Virus record (IMG/VR): IMGVR_UViG_3300042691_028844
Location: 22,581 to 86,580 of that record
Strand: one strand, 5' to 3'
Origin: a virus
DNA length: 64,000 nucleotides
Shown here piece after piece: positions 34,664 to 58,267 of this stretch; position 1 is the first letter of the stretch; each line of letters begins with the position of its first letter. The translations under genes were made by a program, and so were the position numbers. The notes under the pieces were generated by a model. It ran no database searches and was not told the DNA's origin. It was given only the letters and a program-made list of their open reading frames with translations.

Positions 34664-35296
34664 GTGGCTCGTCTTTTAACAGCAGAATTACAGCAAGTTC
34701 AGCAATACCTTGACGAACAAGGTGTTGTATTTGCCAGTGAGTTTACTGACGCTGCTCGGCTTGAAGTCGTTTATGCCGCAGTTAACTCTTTACTGAGGCA
34801 AGTTCCTCAAGTTCGGTCATGCTCTCTTGATGACTATAACTTTGAGCGTGTTTGTTATCACCTTAATTACAACATCTCTGCAGTTAGCCCCGCAGACTAC
34901 TCTAGGTTGCTGGAGGCTTGCAATAATATTCCTAGTGATTTTTACTACTCAAAAATCCTGAATCAGGTTGAGCGTTGCGATCGAGCCGAGGTGTACACAG
35001 AACTGGCATCCAATCGAGGCGCTAGCCAGCAGGAAGTGATTCTCGGTCAAGGAGAGGAAGTATTAAATAGAACCATAACGATTCAAGATAATCGAAAAGT
35101 TATGCGCGTCTGGCGTGAGAACTATTTATATGAGTGTGATCGACTTTCGGCCGTTTTGCATGTAGTTAATTACAAGGATCCGGTTATTGCTCACTCTCGT
35201 TTTATCGCCACGGAGGGTGAGTTCATCCAGAGTCTTCCCGGCCCACCTAGTCCAGCGCTATACGACGATATTTTCTTTTCTACCCTTTGGCATTGA
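34664..35296 (+). CDS. Connector-type protein, copy A (210 aa)
   Basis: GTG start. With the next gene it forms a tandem duplicated pair: both share QQxxxYLxxQGVV, a REIVYAAxN-type helix, LDDYNFxRVxYHLxYN, PADYSRLLxAC, YYxKIxxQxERC and WRENYxxExDRL. An all-helical protein of about 24 kDa between capsid and internal virion genes suits a head-tail connector or adaptor. Function is inferred from position. Confidence 0.65.
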   Translation: MARLLTAELQQVQQYLDEQGVVFASEFTDAARLEVVYAAVNSLLRQVPQVRSCSLDDYNFERVCYHLNYNISAVSPADYSRLLEACNNIPSDFYYSKILNQVERCDRAEVYTELASNRGASQQEVILGQGEEVLNRTITIQDNRKVMRVWRENYLYECDRLSAVLHVVNYKDPVIAHSRFIATEGEFIQSLPGPPSPALYDDIFFSTLWH

Positions 35297-35323: not shown

Positions 35324-35944
35324 GTGGCTGAATTAAGTGTTCAAGAACTAGAGCAGATTTACAGCTACCTTGCGCAGCAGGGTGTTGTAACTCAGCCCAC
35401 CACCACGGATCGCACAAAACGAGAAATCGTTTATGCGGCGCTAAATGAAATCGGCCGCAACCCTGGCAAGGTTTTTGGTTTTAAGCTAGATGACTTTAAC
35501 TTCTCTAGAGTTGCGTATCACTTAGGGTATAACGTAGCGACTGTCCCTGCTGGCGATTACTCTCGTCTGCTGCTGGCTTGTACAAGTATCCCCAGTCAGT
35601 ATTTTTATGACAAGATTATCCAGCAGATTGAACGTTGCGAAGAGGCTGAAAGGCTTTCGGAATTAGCTGGTGGTAAAGGCACCAGCCGGCAAGAGATTAT
35701 TCTTGGTGACGTTAGCCGTACGATTAGCGTTCAGGATAAACAAGAGACAGCCAAAATCTGGCGGGAAAACTATATCTTTGAGACCGATAGGTTAGCCCAA
35801 ATGCTGTTCGTAGCTAACTACAGGAACCCCGTGGTTAATCGTTACCGTTTTGAGCGTAGTGGCGGCACGTATGTTCAGGCTCTGCCTGGTGCTCCCACGA
35901 TGTCGCGGGCCGATCGTCTCTATTTTGCGACTAATTGGCGTTAA
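35324..35944 (+). CDS. Connector-type protein, copy B (206 aa)
   Basis: GTG start; paralogue of the gene before it (shared motifs VYAALNEIGRNPGKVFGFKL, LDDFNFSRVAYHLGYN, AGDYSRLLLAC, WRENYIFETDRL, and PGAPTMSRADRLYFATNW matched by a similar end in copy A). Divergence is considerable, so the duplication is old and both copies are probably needed, perhaps as two ring or neck components. Confidence 0.65.
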   Translation: MAELSVQELEQIYSYLAQQGVVTQPTTTDRTKREIVYAALNEIGRNPGKVFGFKLDDFNFSRVAYHLGYNVATVPAGDYSRLLLACTSIPSQYFYDKIIQQIERCEEAERLSELAGGKGTSRQEIILGDVSRTISVQDKQETAKIWRENYIFETDRLAQMLFVANYRNPVVNRYRFERSGGTYVQALPGAPTMSRADRLYFATNWR

Positions 35945-38878: not shown

Positions 38879-40411
38879 GTGCCCAAAAAATCTAACGGCG
38901 ACAACTTTAGTTTAAAAAGGAGCCGAGGGGAAAAACCAATCCCCAAGGTTCCTAAGTTTACTGGAGCGGACACACCGCATCAGCTATCCCAGCCGATGCC
39001 GTTTAAGCGCAGGTTTCGCCCTGTCGTAGGTACAAAGAACTTCAGTCTTCTAAGTGAATATGATTACGCATCTTTGTGGTCTCGTTGGAGGCGAGGATAC
39101 GAACTGTCGATGTATGCGCAGCAAGCATACAAAGGCGTAAATTACAGCTTCAAGTACTTCTACAGCGGAACAGCTGGAATAGGGTCTTACAGCCCAGGGT
39201 ACGTTTATTTGTACCCAACTACCCGAACTGACGACCGAATGTGGTCTGTCATTATTCAGCCTGAAAAAAATATAAGTTTCAAAGATTTTAGTTTAAGCAT
39301 AGCGTCTGTAACGAATTACTCTGATACAGTTTATGCTGTACAGTTTTCCGATAATTTTGGGCTGCCTTTTTCACAGCTTCATGGCGACACACTGGCTAAT
39401 AAGTTCACAGCGGGCGGGGTTGAAAAAGTAACTGGGTACAACAACTACACCGTCATCGGCGTGGGGAATAACGGTGTATTGGAGGCAAATCCTGATTACA
39501 CACAGTATTTCAACACTTTATTTTTAGATCACAGTCAAGCTAATAGCTGGGAAGTTGTTGACTCGAAGACTCTTAAAGTTCCAGCCTCTGGTCCTCCTGC
39601 CGTAGGCGAATTTTTGTGTACTAACTTCAAAGCTCAATGTACTTGTCCTGATTTTGTTGGTAGAGAAACTGTTAATCTTTACGACATATCACTTAAAAAA
39701 CGTTACCCCTACACTCCCCCTATCGACATGAAGCCGGGATTCTCTGATGCCGGTTCTCAGTCAGCGGAAGGACGAATTATAGATTCTATTGATAATCCTG
39801 GTTGGTCTAGGGCTTTTGGTTTTATATATCTGAACGAGATCTTTGAAATGCCTAGTTACAGCGAACGAGCGTATTCAGATCCTAATTTATTTTATTTTCA
39901 ACCAAAGTGGTGTAAACATGTGTATGCCGCTGTGTTCGACTTATCTCGCACACCGAATCAAACAGCTCTTACTTCAATTTATCTACCTCAGCCAAATGAC
40001 GAGCCGACCCACCCGGCTTACCGAGAAATGTTTGACCGTGAACTAGGCAAGCAGACTGATTTTTTTGAGAGGGAACGGGACTATCGCTGGTGGCTGCGTT
40101 TTGGCCCCACGAAGCAGACACTCCCTTCGCATATTATGCAGCCTGACACGTACAACGTGTTTTCTAAGGTAACTAACATTGGAACACTAGACAGCCCGAG
40201 CGCCGCCGTGGCATCCGGACTCTCATTCCTTGATGTAAATTCTTACAGCCCTTTTATTCCTTCTAGTGGCGTCGATTCTTATGTCAGTGATATATATGCT
40301 AGTGGTGTGTTGGCGACCTTCGATGCTGTTAACATAATTGACGGGGGGACGTATGCTAGCGGCGTACTTACATCACCATCTGCATACGCTATTAACGGAG
40401 GCACGTATTAG
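38879..40411 (+). CDS. Structural protein with SWIM-like Cys/His motif (510 aa)
   Basis: GTG start. Beta-rich protein with many aromatic residues (EYDYASLWSRWRRGYELSMY). FKAQCTCPDFVG (C254, C256) and, about 90 residues later, KWCKHVYAAVF (C345, H347) fit the CxC...CxH pattern of a SWIM zinc finger with an unusually long insert. The C-terminus ends in two YASGVL repeats that resemble the repeats of the next gene. Shares one base pair of its stop with the following GTG. Likely a tail or baseplate component (inference). Confidence 0.65.
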   Translation: MPKKSNGDNFSLKRSRGEKPIPKVPKFTGADTPHQLSQPMPFKRRFRPVVGTKNFSLLSEYDYASLWSRWRRGYELSMYAQQAYKGVNYSFKYFYSGTAGIGSYSPGYVYLYPTTRTDDRMWSVIIQPEKNISFKDFSLSIASVTNYSDTVYAVQFSDNFGLPFSQLHGDTLANKFTAGGVEKVTGYNNYTVIGVGNNGVLEANPDYTQYFNTLFLDHSQANSWEVVDSKTLKVPASGPPAVGEFLCTNFKAQCTCPDFVGRETVNLYDISLKKRYPYTPPIDMKPGFSDAGSQSAEGRIIDSIDNPGWSRAFGFIYLNEIFEMPSYSERAYSDPNLFYFQPKWCKHVYAAVFDLSRTPNQTALTSIYLPQPNDEPTHPAYREMFDRELGKQTDFFERERDYRWWLRFGPTKQTLPSHIMQPDTYNVFSKVTNIGTLDSPSAAVASGLSFLDVNSYSPFIPSSGVDSYVSDIYASGVLATFDAVNIIDGGTYASGVLTSPSAYAINGGTY

Positions 40412-41436
40412 TGACTACTACTCCCGTAGTTATTCTTCTTAAGAGATCTTCTCTAGATTCGGATCGTCCTAGCGGAGTTATCATCCAATACGGAGAATTG
40501 GCTCTGTGCCGAGGATCCGGAGACCCCGGTCTGTATTTTGAAGATAACGCCGACAATATTGTAAAGATTGGACCTCCAGGATACGGTCCCGTCGCACCGA
40601 ACGCAAATTACGTTGGGTCGTCTGGCAACTCCCTAGGCGAACCGTGGAATGACACCTCAAGTCCAACGCCGTATTACAGAGTATGGAATGGCGCGATTTG
40701 GGCAAAAATTAACGCTGGTTTTGCTGACACAGCTACTATAGCTTCTGGCGCTATTCTGGCTTCGGGTTCTTTATTAGCCTCAGGCGCATACTTAGCCTCA
40801 GGAGCTATTCAAGCTTCTGGCGCTATTCTGGCTTCGGGTTCTTTATTAGCCTCAGGCGCATACTTAGCCTCAGGAGCTATTCAAGCTTCTGGCGCTATTC
40901 TGGCTTCGGGAGCTATACAAGCATCAGGTGCATACTTAGCCTCAGGAGCTATTCAAGCCTCTGGTGCTATTCTGGCTTCGGGTTCTTTATTAGCCTCAGG
41001 TGCATACTTAGCCTCAGGAGCTATTCAAGCCTCTGGTGCTATTCTGGCTTCGGGAGCTATACAAGCATCAGGAGCGTACTTGGCGTCGGGCGCTATCCTG
41101 GCATCTGGTGCGATAGAAGCGCAAACAGCTACTTTGGCTTCCGGAGCTATTCTGGCTTCTGGCGCCGTGGAAGCTTACAGTGTCTTACTTTCGTCAGGCA
41201 CACTACAAGCTTCAGGAGCTTTATTAGCTTCTGGTGCATATATTGCTTCGGGTGCTATTTTAGCGTCGGGCGCTATCCTGGCATCTGGTGCGATAGAGGT
41301 CGTCACTGTGGTTTCTAGCGGTCTTCCCGACCCCGTTTCTACTGCATCTGGGGTCTTGTATCTTCAACTTGAGCCATCTGGAACATACGGCTCTGGTCTG
41401 TATGTTAGAGCTGGTTCTGCCTGGTACTTTGTTTAG
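40411..41436 (+). CDS. Fibre protein with ASGA hexapeptide repeats (341 aa)
   Basis: GTG start. Residues 1-105 match a fibre N-terminus: VILLKRSSLDSDRPSGVIIQ, GELALCRGSGDPGLYFEDNA, then a tail-like YRVWNGAIWAKI. Residues 108-295 are about 30 hexapeptides of the ASGAxx type. The C-terminus (VLYLQLEPSGTYGSGLYVRA) is a short tip. Regular six-residue turns suggest a beta-helix or trimeric shaft. The repeat number may vary by recombination. Confidence 0.8.
   Translation: MTTTPVVILLKRSSLDSDRPSGVIIQYGELALCRGSGDPGLYFEDNADNIVKIGPPGYGPVAPNANYVGSSGNSLGEPWNDTSSPTPYYRVWNGAIWAKINAGFADTATIASGAILASGSLLASGAYLASGAIQASGAILASGSLLASGAYLASGAIQASGAILASGAIQASGAYLASGAIQASGAILASGSLLASGAYLASGAIQASGAILASGAIQASGAYLASGAILASGAIEAQTATLASGAILASGAVEAYSVLLSSGTLQASGALLASGAYIASGAILASGAILASGAIEVVTVVSSGLPDPVSTASGVLYLQLEPSGTYGSGLYVRAGSAWYFV
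40741..41100 (+). repeat. 72-base tandem repeat in fibre gene, five units
   Basis: Units of 24 codons (four hexapeptides) start at 40741, 40813, 40885, 40957 and 41029. Units 1, 2 and 4 are near-identical in DNA; units 3 and 5 carry ASGAIQ in place of ASGSLL. Shorter 18-base similarity continues to about 41300. Confidence 0.9.
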
Positions 41437-41975
41437 CCCCTTAAGGTAGCTTTAAGCATCCACGAGGACTTAAAGCAGAAGTTGACGAGATCCGCTAGTT
41501 TATTTTCTACATCTGGCGCTTCCACGGTTTTAGCGGTATTTCCTACTTCTTTTGCGGCCATACCGAGTTCTTCTAAGTTATTTAGATAGGTCGTGACCAT
41601 AGATCTTGCGTCATATGATTTCACGTGAGTAAAGTTCATGCAAGCCGAATCGAGACCTTTCTCGCACATTGGCATTAAGTAATTCATCGAGCGAATAAGC
41701 TCAGCCAAAGTATCGAAGTTTTCGATGTTGCTGGCGTACTGCTCTTTAAAAAAATCGTGCAGAGGAAAAAACAACGGCCCTTCGACGTTTAAATGAATTA
41801 AATGTGATTGAATGTAGAGCTTGTTAATGTATGAAGACAGGGACATCAGTTGACGAATTAGTGTGTCAACTGACGCTCCCTGTTCCACCTCTACCGGTTC
41901 GCTAACTACAACCATTTCTCCCCGCGTGGTCGGAGGAGTCATAGCTATCTGTTCAAACGAACCGGAGAGAGTCAT
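41433..41975 (-). CDS. Dps-like ferritin-fold protein (180 aa)
   Basis: Residues 38-170 follow the Dps pattern: LSSYINKLYIQSHLIHLNVE, GPLFFPLHDFFKEQY, NFDTLAELIRSMNYL. By spacing against E. coli Dps, H61, H73, D88 and E92 match ferroxidase residues H51, H63, D78 and E82, but the position of D67 is lysine (K77), with E78 next to it. Dps proteins bind iron and protect DNA from peroxide. The N-terminus (res. 1-35) is acidic, not basic. It is leftward within rightward structural genes, three bases after a HTH gene. Confidence 0.72.
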   Translation of the reverse strand: MTLSGSFEQIAMTPPTTRGEMVVVSEPVEVEQGASVDTLIRQLMSLSSYINKLYIQSHLIHLNVEGPLFFPLHDFFKEQYASNIENFDTLAELIRSMNYLMPMCEKGLDSACMNFTHVKSYDARSMVTTYLNNLEELGMAAKEVGNTAKTVEAPDVENKLADLVNFCFKSSWMLKATLRG

Positions 41976-42984: not shown

Positions 42985-44301
42985 ATGGCTCCACAACGCC
43001 AAGCTCGCGTAGGGATCCTGCCTCCTGCAGATAAAGCGGCGATTGTTCGAGCGGCACAGCAATTACAGTTAGATCCTTATGAGCTTGGCGCGTTTCTCTC
43101 ACTGGAATCAGGGCCCAATATGGACCCCAACGTATGGGGCGGCCTTAATGACGATTACTATGGTTTGATTCAATTTGGTCGCAATGAGAGATCTAAATAT
43201 TTAGATCCTCGTTTAATAGGTACCTATACGCGAGCCGAGCAAATACCTAAGGCCGTTCAGTTCTTACTGGATAGGGGGTTTAAGCCCGGAAAGATGGGCG
43301 TAGGGCAAGCGTATGCGACAGTGCTACTAGGAAATCCTTATGAACCTTTAACAAACAAAGATTCGTGGGGAACAAGCCCCGCTAATTCCCTCCGCCGTTT
43401 CAAACCTGGCGGAGATTTGTATGCAAACGCAAAGAGAGTTTTAGGGGACATAGCCGCCCCCACGCAACCTTCGGGGCCGAGATTTGAGCGCCCTTCCCAA
43501 GTAGATATTCCGACTGGGCAACAGCCTGGTCAGCCTGCATCTGCGACAGTTAACCGCCCTCCGCAGGATATTTTTCAAAATTTAATGCAAGGCGTTCAAA
43601 AAATATTTGGTACAACCGGGCCTAGAAGATCGTCGAGCGAAGATTACTTAGATAAGGCTATGGCCCTTGATTCTGCGGGGCAATCAGATGAAGCTATGAA
43701 ATACTATGAAGCTGCTTTTGCTAGTGATGCTACTCCATCTAAATCAGACGATTTAGAGGAAACTTTTTCCTCTGTGTTACAACCGGCTGTTACATCTTAT
43801 CTTGATGTTATGAACCAGCGGAGTGCTACTGGGCCAACAACTACGGCTGCGCCAGCTCCTGCTCCGGGTACTCCTACTCCGGCTGGGCCCATGGGCTCGA
43901 TACGTGCTGGACGGATCGCTCACCCTCATGAAGATGTGTTCCCTACTACTGGCCCTCATCTGCATGTACGTGTCTTACGTAACAATGAGGATGTGAATCC
44001 TGAGTACACCCGGTCTATTCTCCAGAATCTTTATGCTGGAGGTAAACCGCTGTATGCTTTACAAGGCTCTGAGTGGAGACCTTCTTACCCTATAACTTCG
44101 CGGTTTGGTCCTCGTACGGCGCCGACCGCCGGGGCATCCACGTATCACCGAGGTGTTGATTACGGTATTCCCGCCGAAACTCCGTTGGAGTGGAGAGGTC
44201 GAGGAACGTACAGACCCGAGCGTGGCTTCGGTGTTATAGAAACTACAGATCCTCAGGGTCAACCATACACGATTAGATTAGCTCACACGGTTCCTGGTTA
44301 A
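42985..44301 (+). CDS. Muralytic protein: transglycosylase plus permuted M23-like domain
   Basis: Residues 20-155 are lysozyme-like: YELGAFLSLESGPNMDPNVW (E41 as likely acid) and YYGLIQFGRNERSKYL. Residues 217-250 resemble a TPR hairpin. After a Pro/Ala linker the C-terminus has M23 peptidase elements: GPHLHVRV (H325, H327), then SRFGPR (372-377), YHRGVDYG (H388, D392), GFGVIETTDPQGQPY and RLAHT (H434). In usual M23 enzymes HxxxD comes before HxH; here the order is reversed. Probably a virion-borne wall enzyme acting at DNA entry. Confidence 0.75.
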   Translation: MAPQRQARVGILPPADKAAIVRAAQQLQLDPYELGAFLSLESGPNMDPNVWGGLNDDYYGLIQFGRNERSKYLDPRLIGTYTRAEQIPKAVQFLLDRGFKPGKMGVGQAYATVLLGNPYEPLTNKDSWGTSPANSLRRFKPGGDLYANAKRVLGDIAAPTQPSGPRFERPSQVDIPTGQQPGQPASATVNRPPQDIFQNLMQGVQKIFGTTGPRRSSSEDYLDKAMALDSAGQSDEAMKYYEAAFASDATPSKSDDLEETFSSVLQPAVTSYLDVMNQRSATGPTTTAAPAPAPGTPTPAGPMGSIRAGRIAHPHEDVFPTTGPHLHVRVLRNNEDVNPEYTRSILQNLYAGGKPLYALQGSEWRPSYPITSRFGPRTAPTAGASTYHRGVDYGIPAETPLEWRGRGTYRPERGFGVIETTDPQGQPYTIRLAHTVPG

Positions 44302-57001: not shown

Positions 57002-58267
57002 ATGAAAACCGGGCAGAAAGGTGTTGACCTTATTAAACAATTCGAGGGTCTTCGCCTAGTCGGGTACTTGTGTCCCGCGAATGTCCCCACCGTGGGCTAC
57101 GGAACTACGGGCCCAAATATTCGCGTCGGTATGCGAATTACGGAGGGTGAGGCTGAGGAGTATCTGCGGAACTCCTTAACTTCTATTGAGCAGGGTATCG
57201 GTAAAACTGTTACTGTTTCTCTAAATCAGAATGAGTTTGATGCTTTAGTCAGCTTTGCTTATAACGTTGGCTCTAGCGCATTATACAATTCGACTCTAAT
57301 CAGACTGTTAAATTCCGAGACAGACAAGAAAACTGTTGCCGCTGAATTTTTTCGCTGGGATAAAGTAAACGGAAAACCTATTCTTGGGTTAACCCGACGC
57401 CGCAAAGCTGAACACGATTTATTCTTAACTCTCCCCAATCCTATTGAAATGACTTCTTCGATTTTTGCTGTTGAGGACACCTGGCTAAAGCGGGAGCCGC
57501 TACAGGCGTCTGAGCTCCCTGCTGAAAAGAAACTGTTTGTCCCCCAAGGTAGCGCTCACCAATGGGACTCAATCGAGCAGATCGCTGGTGAACCCCACTA
57601 CAAAGTGCATTTAACCCGCCACCCGGAACAGCCGTGGTGGTTCTGGCCCAGCCATTTCAAGATTGTTAACGAGAGTCACCCCCTCGCACCTACTCCTCCG
57701 GCTACACCTAGCGCAGCAGTTATCGGTGTTACGCCCCCTCCGGTGCTGGATGTTCCGTACTATTCACAGTTAGACAATAGTCGGGACCCGTACAGAACAT
57801 GCTTCAGTAGCTCCTGCGCCATGCTGCTAAAGTATTTGAAACCAAAAGCCATCAAGAGCGACGACGAATACATCAACACTGTCTTTAGCTACGGGGATAC
57901 TACCGACGCTTCTGTTCAAATAAAAGCACTCAAGCACTACGGCGTAACCGCTCAGTTCAAACAAACCGGCTCGTGGGCAGAGCTGACGCGTTTAATTCGC
58001 GTCGGTATTCCTATTCCTATCGGATTTCTTCATAAAGGGCGTGTTGATGCTCCTACCGGCGGAGGACACTGGCTCACGGTTATCGGAGTTTGGAAGAATT
58101 ATCAGGGTGTAATTGTCAACGATCCTTTTGGGGAATTGGATCTTGTTAGCGGCACGTACCTCAATACCAACGGTAAAGCCCTGCGGTATAGTCAAAAGAA
58201 CCTTGGTCCCCGCTGGTTGCCTGAAGGGCCCAAGTCTGGCTGGTACATTGAGGCTATCTCTTGGTGA
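57002..58267 (+). CDS. Endolysin: GH24 lysozyme plus C39-like peptidase (421 aa)
   Basis: N-terminal GH24 (res. 1-145): FEGLRLVGYLCPANVPTVGY with E15, C24 and T30 in the spacing of the T4 lysozyme E11-D20-T26 triad (Asp replaced by Cys, common in this family). Residues 155-220 are an SH3-like linker domain (LKREPLQASELPAEKKLFVP). C-terminal C39-like (res. 240-421): VPYYSQLDNSRDPYRTCFSS with C267, GGGHWLTVIGV with H356 and VNDPFG with D374. The first domain cleaves glycan; the second may cut peptide or bind wall. Lysis of the host is the likely role. Confidence 0.85.
   Translation: MKTGQKGVDLIKQFEGLRLVGYLCPANVPTVGYGTTGPNIRVGMRITEGEAEEYLRNSLTSIEQGIGKTVTVSLNQNEFDALVSFAYNVGSSALYNSTLIRLLNSETDKKTVAAEFFRWDKVNGKPILGLTRRRKAEHDLFLTLPNPIEMTSSIFAVEDTWLKREPLQASELPAEKKLFVPQGSAHQWDSIEQIAGEPHYKVHLTRHPEQPWWFWPSHFKIVNESHPLAPTPPATPSAAVIGVTPPPVLDVPYYSQLDNSRDPYRTCFSSSCAMLLKYLKPKAIKSDDEYINTVFSYGDTTDASVQIKALKHYGVTAQFKQTGSWAELTRLIRVGIPIPIGFLHKGRVDAPTGGGHWLTVIGVWKNYQGVIVNDPFGELDLVSGTYLNTNGKALRYSQKNLGPRWLPEGPKSGWYIEAISW

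Follow-up and report, generated by a model that had tools for sequence, protein, structure and literature searches.

M23 metallopeptidases conventionally present their motifs in the order H(x)nD...H...HxH. This order is absent from a 438-residue open reading frame of the window (the whole 64,000-nucleotide stretch analysed here, part of an 86,580-base IMG/VR virus record), where the elements run HxH...H(x)3D...H in a frame uninterrupted by stops (42985-44301). How can an M23 domain be built from elements in this order? A sequence-only reading of the window had proposed either a circular permutation or two half-domains contributed by swapped subunits, linked in both cases to a transglycosylase-type domain in the same protein. 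Our results point to the former. With a probability of about 0.85, residues ~303-438 form a circularly permuted, single-chain M23 domain which, together with the transglycosylase domain, makes up a probable virion-associated hydrolase at DNA entry.

Organization of the protein

Translation of the open reading frame, which encodes a cyanophage protein, recovered the M23 elements in the reversed order initially noticed: GPHLHVRV at residues 323-330 comes first, followed by SRFGPR from residue 372, YHRGVDYG (to 394) and RLAHT (to 435). These residue numbers held, whereas the start of the domain did not, being at about residue 303, i.e. slightly upstream of position 43900 where it had been placed (Table 1). 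Segment A corresponds to the C-terminal part of conventional M23 domains (G-x-I hairpin strand, TTGPHLHVRV and VNPE) and segment B to their N-terminal part (ITSRFGPR, H388xxxD392 and LAH434). A helix immediately precedes the short linker between them (DSSP of the AlphaFold2 model). The longer linker upstream of segment A displays one weak TPR-like helix pair at residues 221-248 (TPR_8, 16.4 bits, under the cut-off).

Table 1. Domain organization of the 438-residue protein, with positions given on the window.
Feature	Residues	Positions	Strand	Basis
Open reading frame of 438 residues: lytic transglycosylase domain, linker and permuted M23 domain		42985..44301	+	Open reading frame; relatives
N-terminal lytic transglycosylase (SLT-like) domain, LSLESG...YGLIQF motif	8-156	43006..43452	+	Identity, Pfam, profile
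Pro/Gln-rich linker	157-302	43453..43890	+	Sequence
Permuted segment A	303-350	43891..44034	+	Conventional M23 profile, columns 83-117 (hhalign)
Linker between old C- and N-termini	351-365	44035..44079	+	DSSP of the AlphaFold2 model
Permuted segment B	366-438	44080..44298	+	Conventional M23 profile, columns 1-74 (hhalign)

Circular permutation of the M23 domain

The domain was cut and rejoined at every position and each product was scored with an HMM built from 74 conventional M23 domains. A single optimum was observed, located just past the HLH segment, in the linker beside residue 350, at which the rejoined chain spans the whole profile. There, the window domain rose from 45.9 to 62.7 bits and its profile coverage from positions 3-42 to 3-119 of 126. 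The Moraxella domain likewise rose from 54.7 to 86.0 bits, three divergent permuted relatives carrying textbook GSTGxSxGPHxH motifs (L285, L294 and L306) gained 28-31 bits, and the median gain over 80 relatives was 10 bits. Conventional M23 controls (n=70) gained at most 0.1 bits, and half B joined to shuffled versions of half A reached a maximum of 54.9 bits in 300 shuffles, against 62.7 for the rotated window domain. One cut and one rejoining were sufficient to restore full-length collinearity, as expected of a circular permutation.

Profile-profile alignment led to a similar picture. When a family profile of 39 sequences in native order was compared with the conventional M23 profile (hhalign), two matches were obtained in swapped order, one for the SRFGPR...LAH part (probability 99.4%, E 2.6e-21) and one for the HLH part (probability 92.7%, E 4.1e-7), whereas the rotated profile gave one whole-domain match (E 2.6e-28). 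The two native matches, together with the invariance of key His and Asp residues (see below), indicate that the motif order is not due to chance. In a profile search of the PDB, two stretches, 71-138 and 5-43 (11-41), matched the solved M23 structures 3SLU, 6MUK and 6UE4, ShyA among them, with their order along the chain reversed. At the sequence level, the permutation is established together with its conservation: rotation, profile-profile alignment, swapped-order matches to solved structures and the persistence of the order across phages all back it.

The Pfam M23 model (PF01551, cut-off 28.7 bits) gave mixed results. The window domain alone scored 13.6 and 13.7 bits in the two orders, far under the cut-off and a point against our reading, and the native window protein displayed no family above cut-off in Pfam and NCBIfam scans. 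Relatives L285 (30.0 bits), L294 (30.3) and L306 (38.1) all passed it natively; rotation raised L294 to 37.3 and L306 to 43.6 bits, turning two matched stretches into one. The Moraxella domain went from 26.5 to 41.4 bits.

M23B metallopeptidases (LytM, lysostaphin, ShyA and NMB0315; PF01551) share both sequence blocks with the window domain, with the H(x)3D and HxH motifs, the extra catalytic His and the FGxR block, as well as the same strands in AlphaFold2 models. The difference lies in the block order, circularly permuted in the window with termini in the loop after the L-x-H strand, and in the HxD, not HxH, of most permuted relatives. In the arrangement proposed here, the old N- and C-termini would be joined through a linker of ~15 residues and new termini would have been created between two elements, the strand that finishes with the catalytic L-x-H and the V-x-x-G-x-x-I hairpin located ahead of GPHLH.

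Predicted fold and structure searches

AlphaFold2 was confident on the native order as a single chain (pLDDT 92.2, pTM 0.86), and the strands and helix of this permuted model correspond, once rotated, to those of a conventional control model. With Foldseek, the control was identified as M23 through 53 matches (E <= 0.001), whereas the permuted model matched no M23 structure in the PDB. Such a miss was expected since the search is order-dependent, and a limited capacity of structure search tools, Foldseek included, to retrieve circular permutants has been described (PMC12667903). Yet a match to one half of the domain would not have been surprising, and its absence counts against our reading. 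In BFVD, only two viral proteins were matched with support, one of them being 851 residues long, as is the Moraxella Mcat18 protein. On our reading, the native chain would fold as one domain, with its active-site residues brought together as in conventional M23 enzymes.

Predicted active site

Residues H325, H388, D392 and H434 were invariant in an alignment of 41 rows, and so were GAS and the glycine and arginine of FGxR. The zinc motif H(x)nD is present as H388xxxD392 and the HxH motif as H325-L-H327. The further catalytic His (LytM H260, about 30 residues before HxH) corresponds to H434, which precedes HxH only after rotation. Alignment to M23 enzymes as described in PMC9662197 suggests that zinc would be bound by H388, D392 and H327, and water activated by H325 and H434, as in conventional M23. 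For the permuted domain as a whole, we infer both catalysis and substrate.

Position 327 is occupied by His in the window and by Asp (HxD) in the 80 loci kept from the viral contig scan (see below). HxH is also present in deeper permuted members (L294, L271, L285, L306 and L277) and in tape-measure proteins (L261-L263). Since the window groups with the Asp-bearing L011 in the tree (support 100/99), its His327 is probably a reversion. This Asp/His switch of the third ligand constitutes a natural test of zinc-site tolerance. In a side observation, HxD was found paired with Arg two residues further on (HLDVR, HLDIR), the window displaying HLHVR (positions 327 and 329) and permuted tape-measure proteins with HxH having Gln there instead (HLHIQ, HLHVQ, HLHLQ).

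Distribution of the permuted order

A search for the same order in other phages had been suggested from the sequence, and it was successful: roughly a hundred different phage proteins conserve the rearranged order. The scan of viral contigs yielded 380 relatives, among which 80 were kept, and the permuted order was contiguous in all 80 of these IMG/VR loci. In S-EIV1-like phages, the domain is usually a stand-alone protein starting a few residues before the permuted start, which indicates that nothing upstream supplies a missing half. Protein AHV82231 of Synechococcus phage S-EIV1 ('peptidase M23 family') carries the same permuted domain, 51% identical to that of the window, but is 248 residues long, has the domain at its N-terminus, displays HxD and is devoid of the transglycosylase domain. 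Its annotation is silent on the permutation.

The same permuted order was also encountered inside tape-measure proteins of Acinetobacter (Vieuvirus) and Moraxella Mcat phages, which differ by the carrier protein and by an identity of only ~30-40%. This form was recorded in 12 of 249 genomes of the Acinetobacter family, the 12 matches all spanning the whole domain, while a search of 369 gammaproteobacterial genomes returned it in the seed only; in this sample, it looks confined to Moraxellaceae. Within the Moraxella phages Mcat18, Mcat21 and Mcat22 (L009:4183), a frame change in the permuted M23 domain splits the tape-measure gene (HRGIDT*), and the genes of Mcat19, 20 and 23 are without that split.

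Origin of the permutation

Circular permutations usually arise through tandem duplication followed by trimming, or through fission and fusion. The cyanophage and tape-measure forms displayed an identical cut site. When rotated sequences were placed in a tree, the tape-measure form grouped with a conventional cyanobacterial M23 (97/90), apart from the cyanophage form, and may represent a separate permutation event, but a single clade of both forms was not rejected (p-AU 0.26). We put forward only tentatively, and with some doubt, that the same M23 loop was opened by permutation on two or more occasions, once in S-EIV1-like cyanophages and once in Moraxellaceae tape-measure proteins. If so, this loop would be a repeatedly used permutation site, and phages would select permuted M23 domains in virion entry proteins.

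The transglycosylase partner

The transglycosylase-type domain suspected at the N-terminus was also recovered. A profile of this region and two relatives matched a lytic transglycosidase (PDB 9udh, E 3.6e-5). The window segment alone displayed no Pfam match, and the relative in L001 passed Pfam SLT (PF01464; 24.6 bits, cut-off 21.3). Stand-alone genes of L001 and L027 share 58-67% identity with the domain.

Related phages encode the lytic transglycosylase domain in a separate neighbouring gene, a permuted M23 gene being found nearby on the same strand in 34 of the 58 viral loci having that domain. The two genes abut in the window order, with overlapping stop and start (TGATG), in L318:7818-9358 and L320:2957-4494, plausibly representing an intermediate of the window fusion. 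Other combinations were also observed. The closest relative of the window M23 part (L011:4056-5405) carries a different, apparently lysozyme-like, N-terminal region (RYAEGT...GAYQF), and phages related to the window phage display the transglycosylase fused to a degenerate M23 domain in conventional order (GGKGMDF...GAHISMDFF; L270:7917-9371 and L276:7917-9365) whose catalytic residues are partly lost. These varied fusions and neighbourhoods indicate that the pairing of glycan- and peptide-cutting domains recurs, while the M23 order varies.

Gene context and relation to known entry proteins

The gene is located downstream of genes for the terminase (22284), a portal-like structural protein (27075) and the major capsid protein (32076), the latter being about 68% identical to that of S-EIV1. 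Gene position within the structural cluster, the presence of a separate endolysin-like gene, tape-measure homologues, an N-terminus resembling an annotated internal capsid protein and the M23 domain of the cyanophage A4 pre-ejectosome led us to favour, by inference, a virion-associated lytic transglycosylase and endopeptidase at DNA entry. Such a bifunctional peptidoglycan hydrolase would cleave both the glycan strands and the stem peptides as the DNA enters.

The gp13 protein of phage phi29 carries an N-terminal lysozyme domain, a two-activity layout like that of the window protein. This tail-knob enzyme (3CSQ, PMC9662197) is a phage entry protein with an M23 domain, as is proposed for the window protein; its M23 domain is in conventional order. 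The pre-ejectosome protein of cyanophage A4 (PDB 9k2v) is a virion ejection protein that likewise contains an M23 domain, presumably in conventional order since the conventional-order control model matched its whole length.

Alternative readings

A domain-swapped dimer or oligomer, for instance in a virion core, in which each active site is built from two subunits, is permitted by the motif order itself, and oligomerisation is common among virion proteins. Half-domains from swapped subunits are nonetheless not needed, as AlphaFold2 folds one chain with high confidence and stand-alone proteins of 208-245 residues hold the whole domain; moreover, the linker is long enough and placed after the helix, and tape-measure versions have only a short linker from the HLD strand to the S-x-YG-x-R segment. 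We consider this arrangement very improbable. An assembly artefact, a frameshift or a fortuitous joining of two M23 pieces has a negligible probability: nothing was found in its favour, the frame is open without stops, and the order recurs across numerous independent contigs as well as in the genomes of isolates (S-EIV1, Acinetobacter and Moraxella phages).

LytM factors usually lose their catalytic residues, and the permuted M23 fold could similarly have become structural or peptidoglycan-binding; the Asp found as third ligand in nearly all close relatives and the degenerate M23 fused to the same transglycosylase in a related lineage (L270, L276) would agree with this. Asp is nevertheless able to act as a zinc ligand, the four key residues are invariant, and HxH is kept in the window and in the five deeper members, making a loss of catalysis rather unlikely. 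A role as endolysin in host lysis is quite improbable, although some phage M23 proteins are endolysins (PMC9662197): the window harbours a distinct endolysin-like gene (57002-58267, Phage_lysozyme PF00959 with a C39-type cysteine peptidase), the 438-residue gene lies downstream of those for the capsid and, presumably, the tail, permuted homologues of the domain belong to tape-measure proteins, and the N-terminal domain is similar to a Rhizobium phage Pasto protein annotated as an internal capsid protein.

Novelty and consequences for annotation

A search of open-access papers found no prior report of permutation in M23 or LytM. The nearest paper concerned permuted NlpC/P60, not M23 (PMC6403190), and 'permut' is absent from the M23 review PMC9662197. 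As far as found in this literature, the domain is a real and undescribed M23 variant. Few wall hydrolases have been studied as well as the M23 peptidases, which are also used as antibacterials, and a natural, conserved permutant shows where the M23 fold accepts new termini. The number of permuted hydrolases in phage virions is probably underestimated because standard annotation misses such domains or halves them, as illustrated by the Pfam and Foldseek results for the window.

Other genes of the window

Three further observations were made in the window. A ferritin/Dps-like gene (41433-41975, PF00210, E 4.6e-10), also present in L011, occurs on the opposite (-) strand within the structural cluster. 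Two adjacent genes (34664-35296 and 35324-35944) both match a single S-EIV1 gene (L002:6781-7242), reflecting a tandem duplication with divergence. Finally, the protein encoded at 40411-41436 is mostly composed of (L/A)ASGA(I/Y/L) repeats, possibly a fibre, and is 341 residues long versus 241 in L011.
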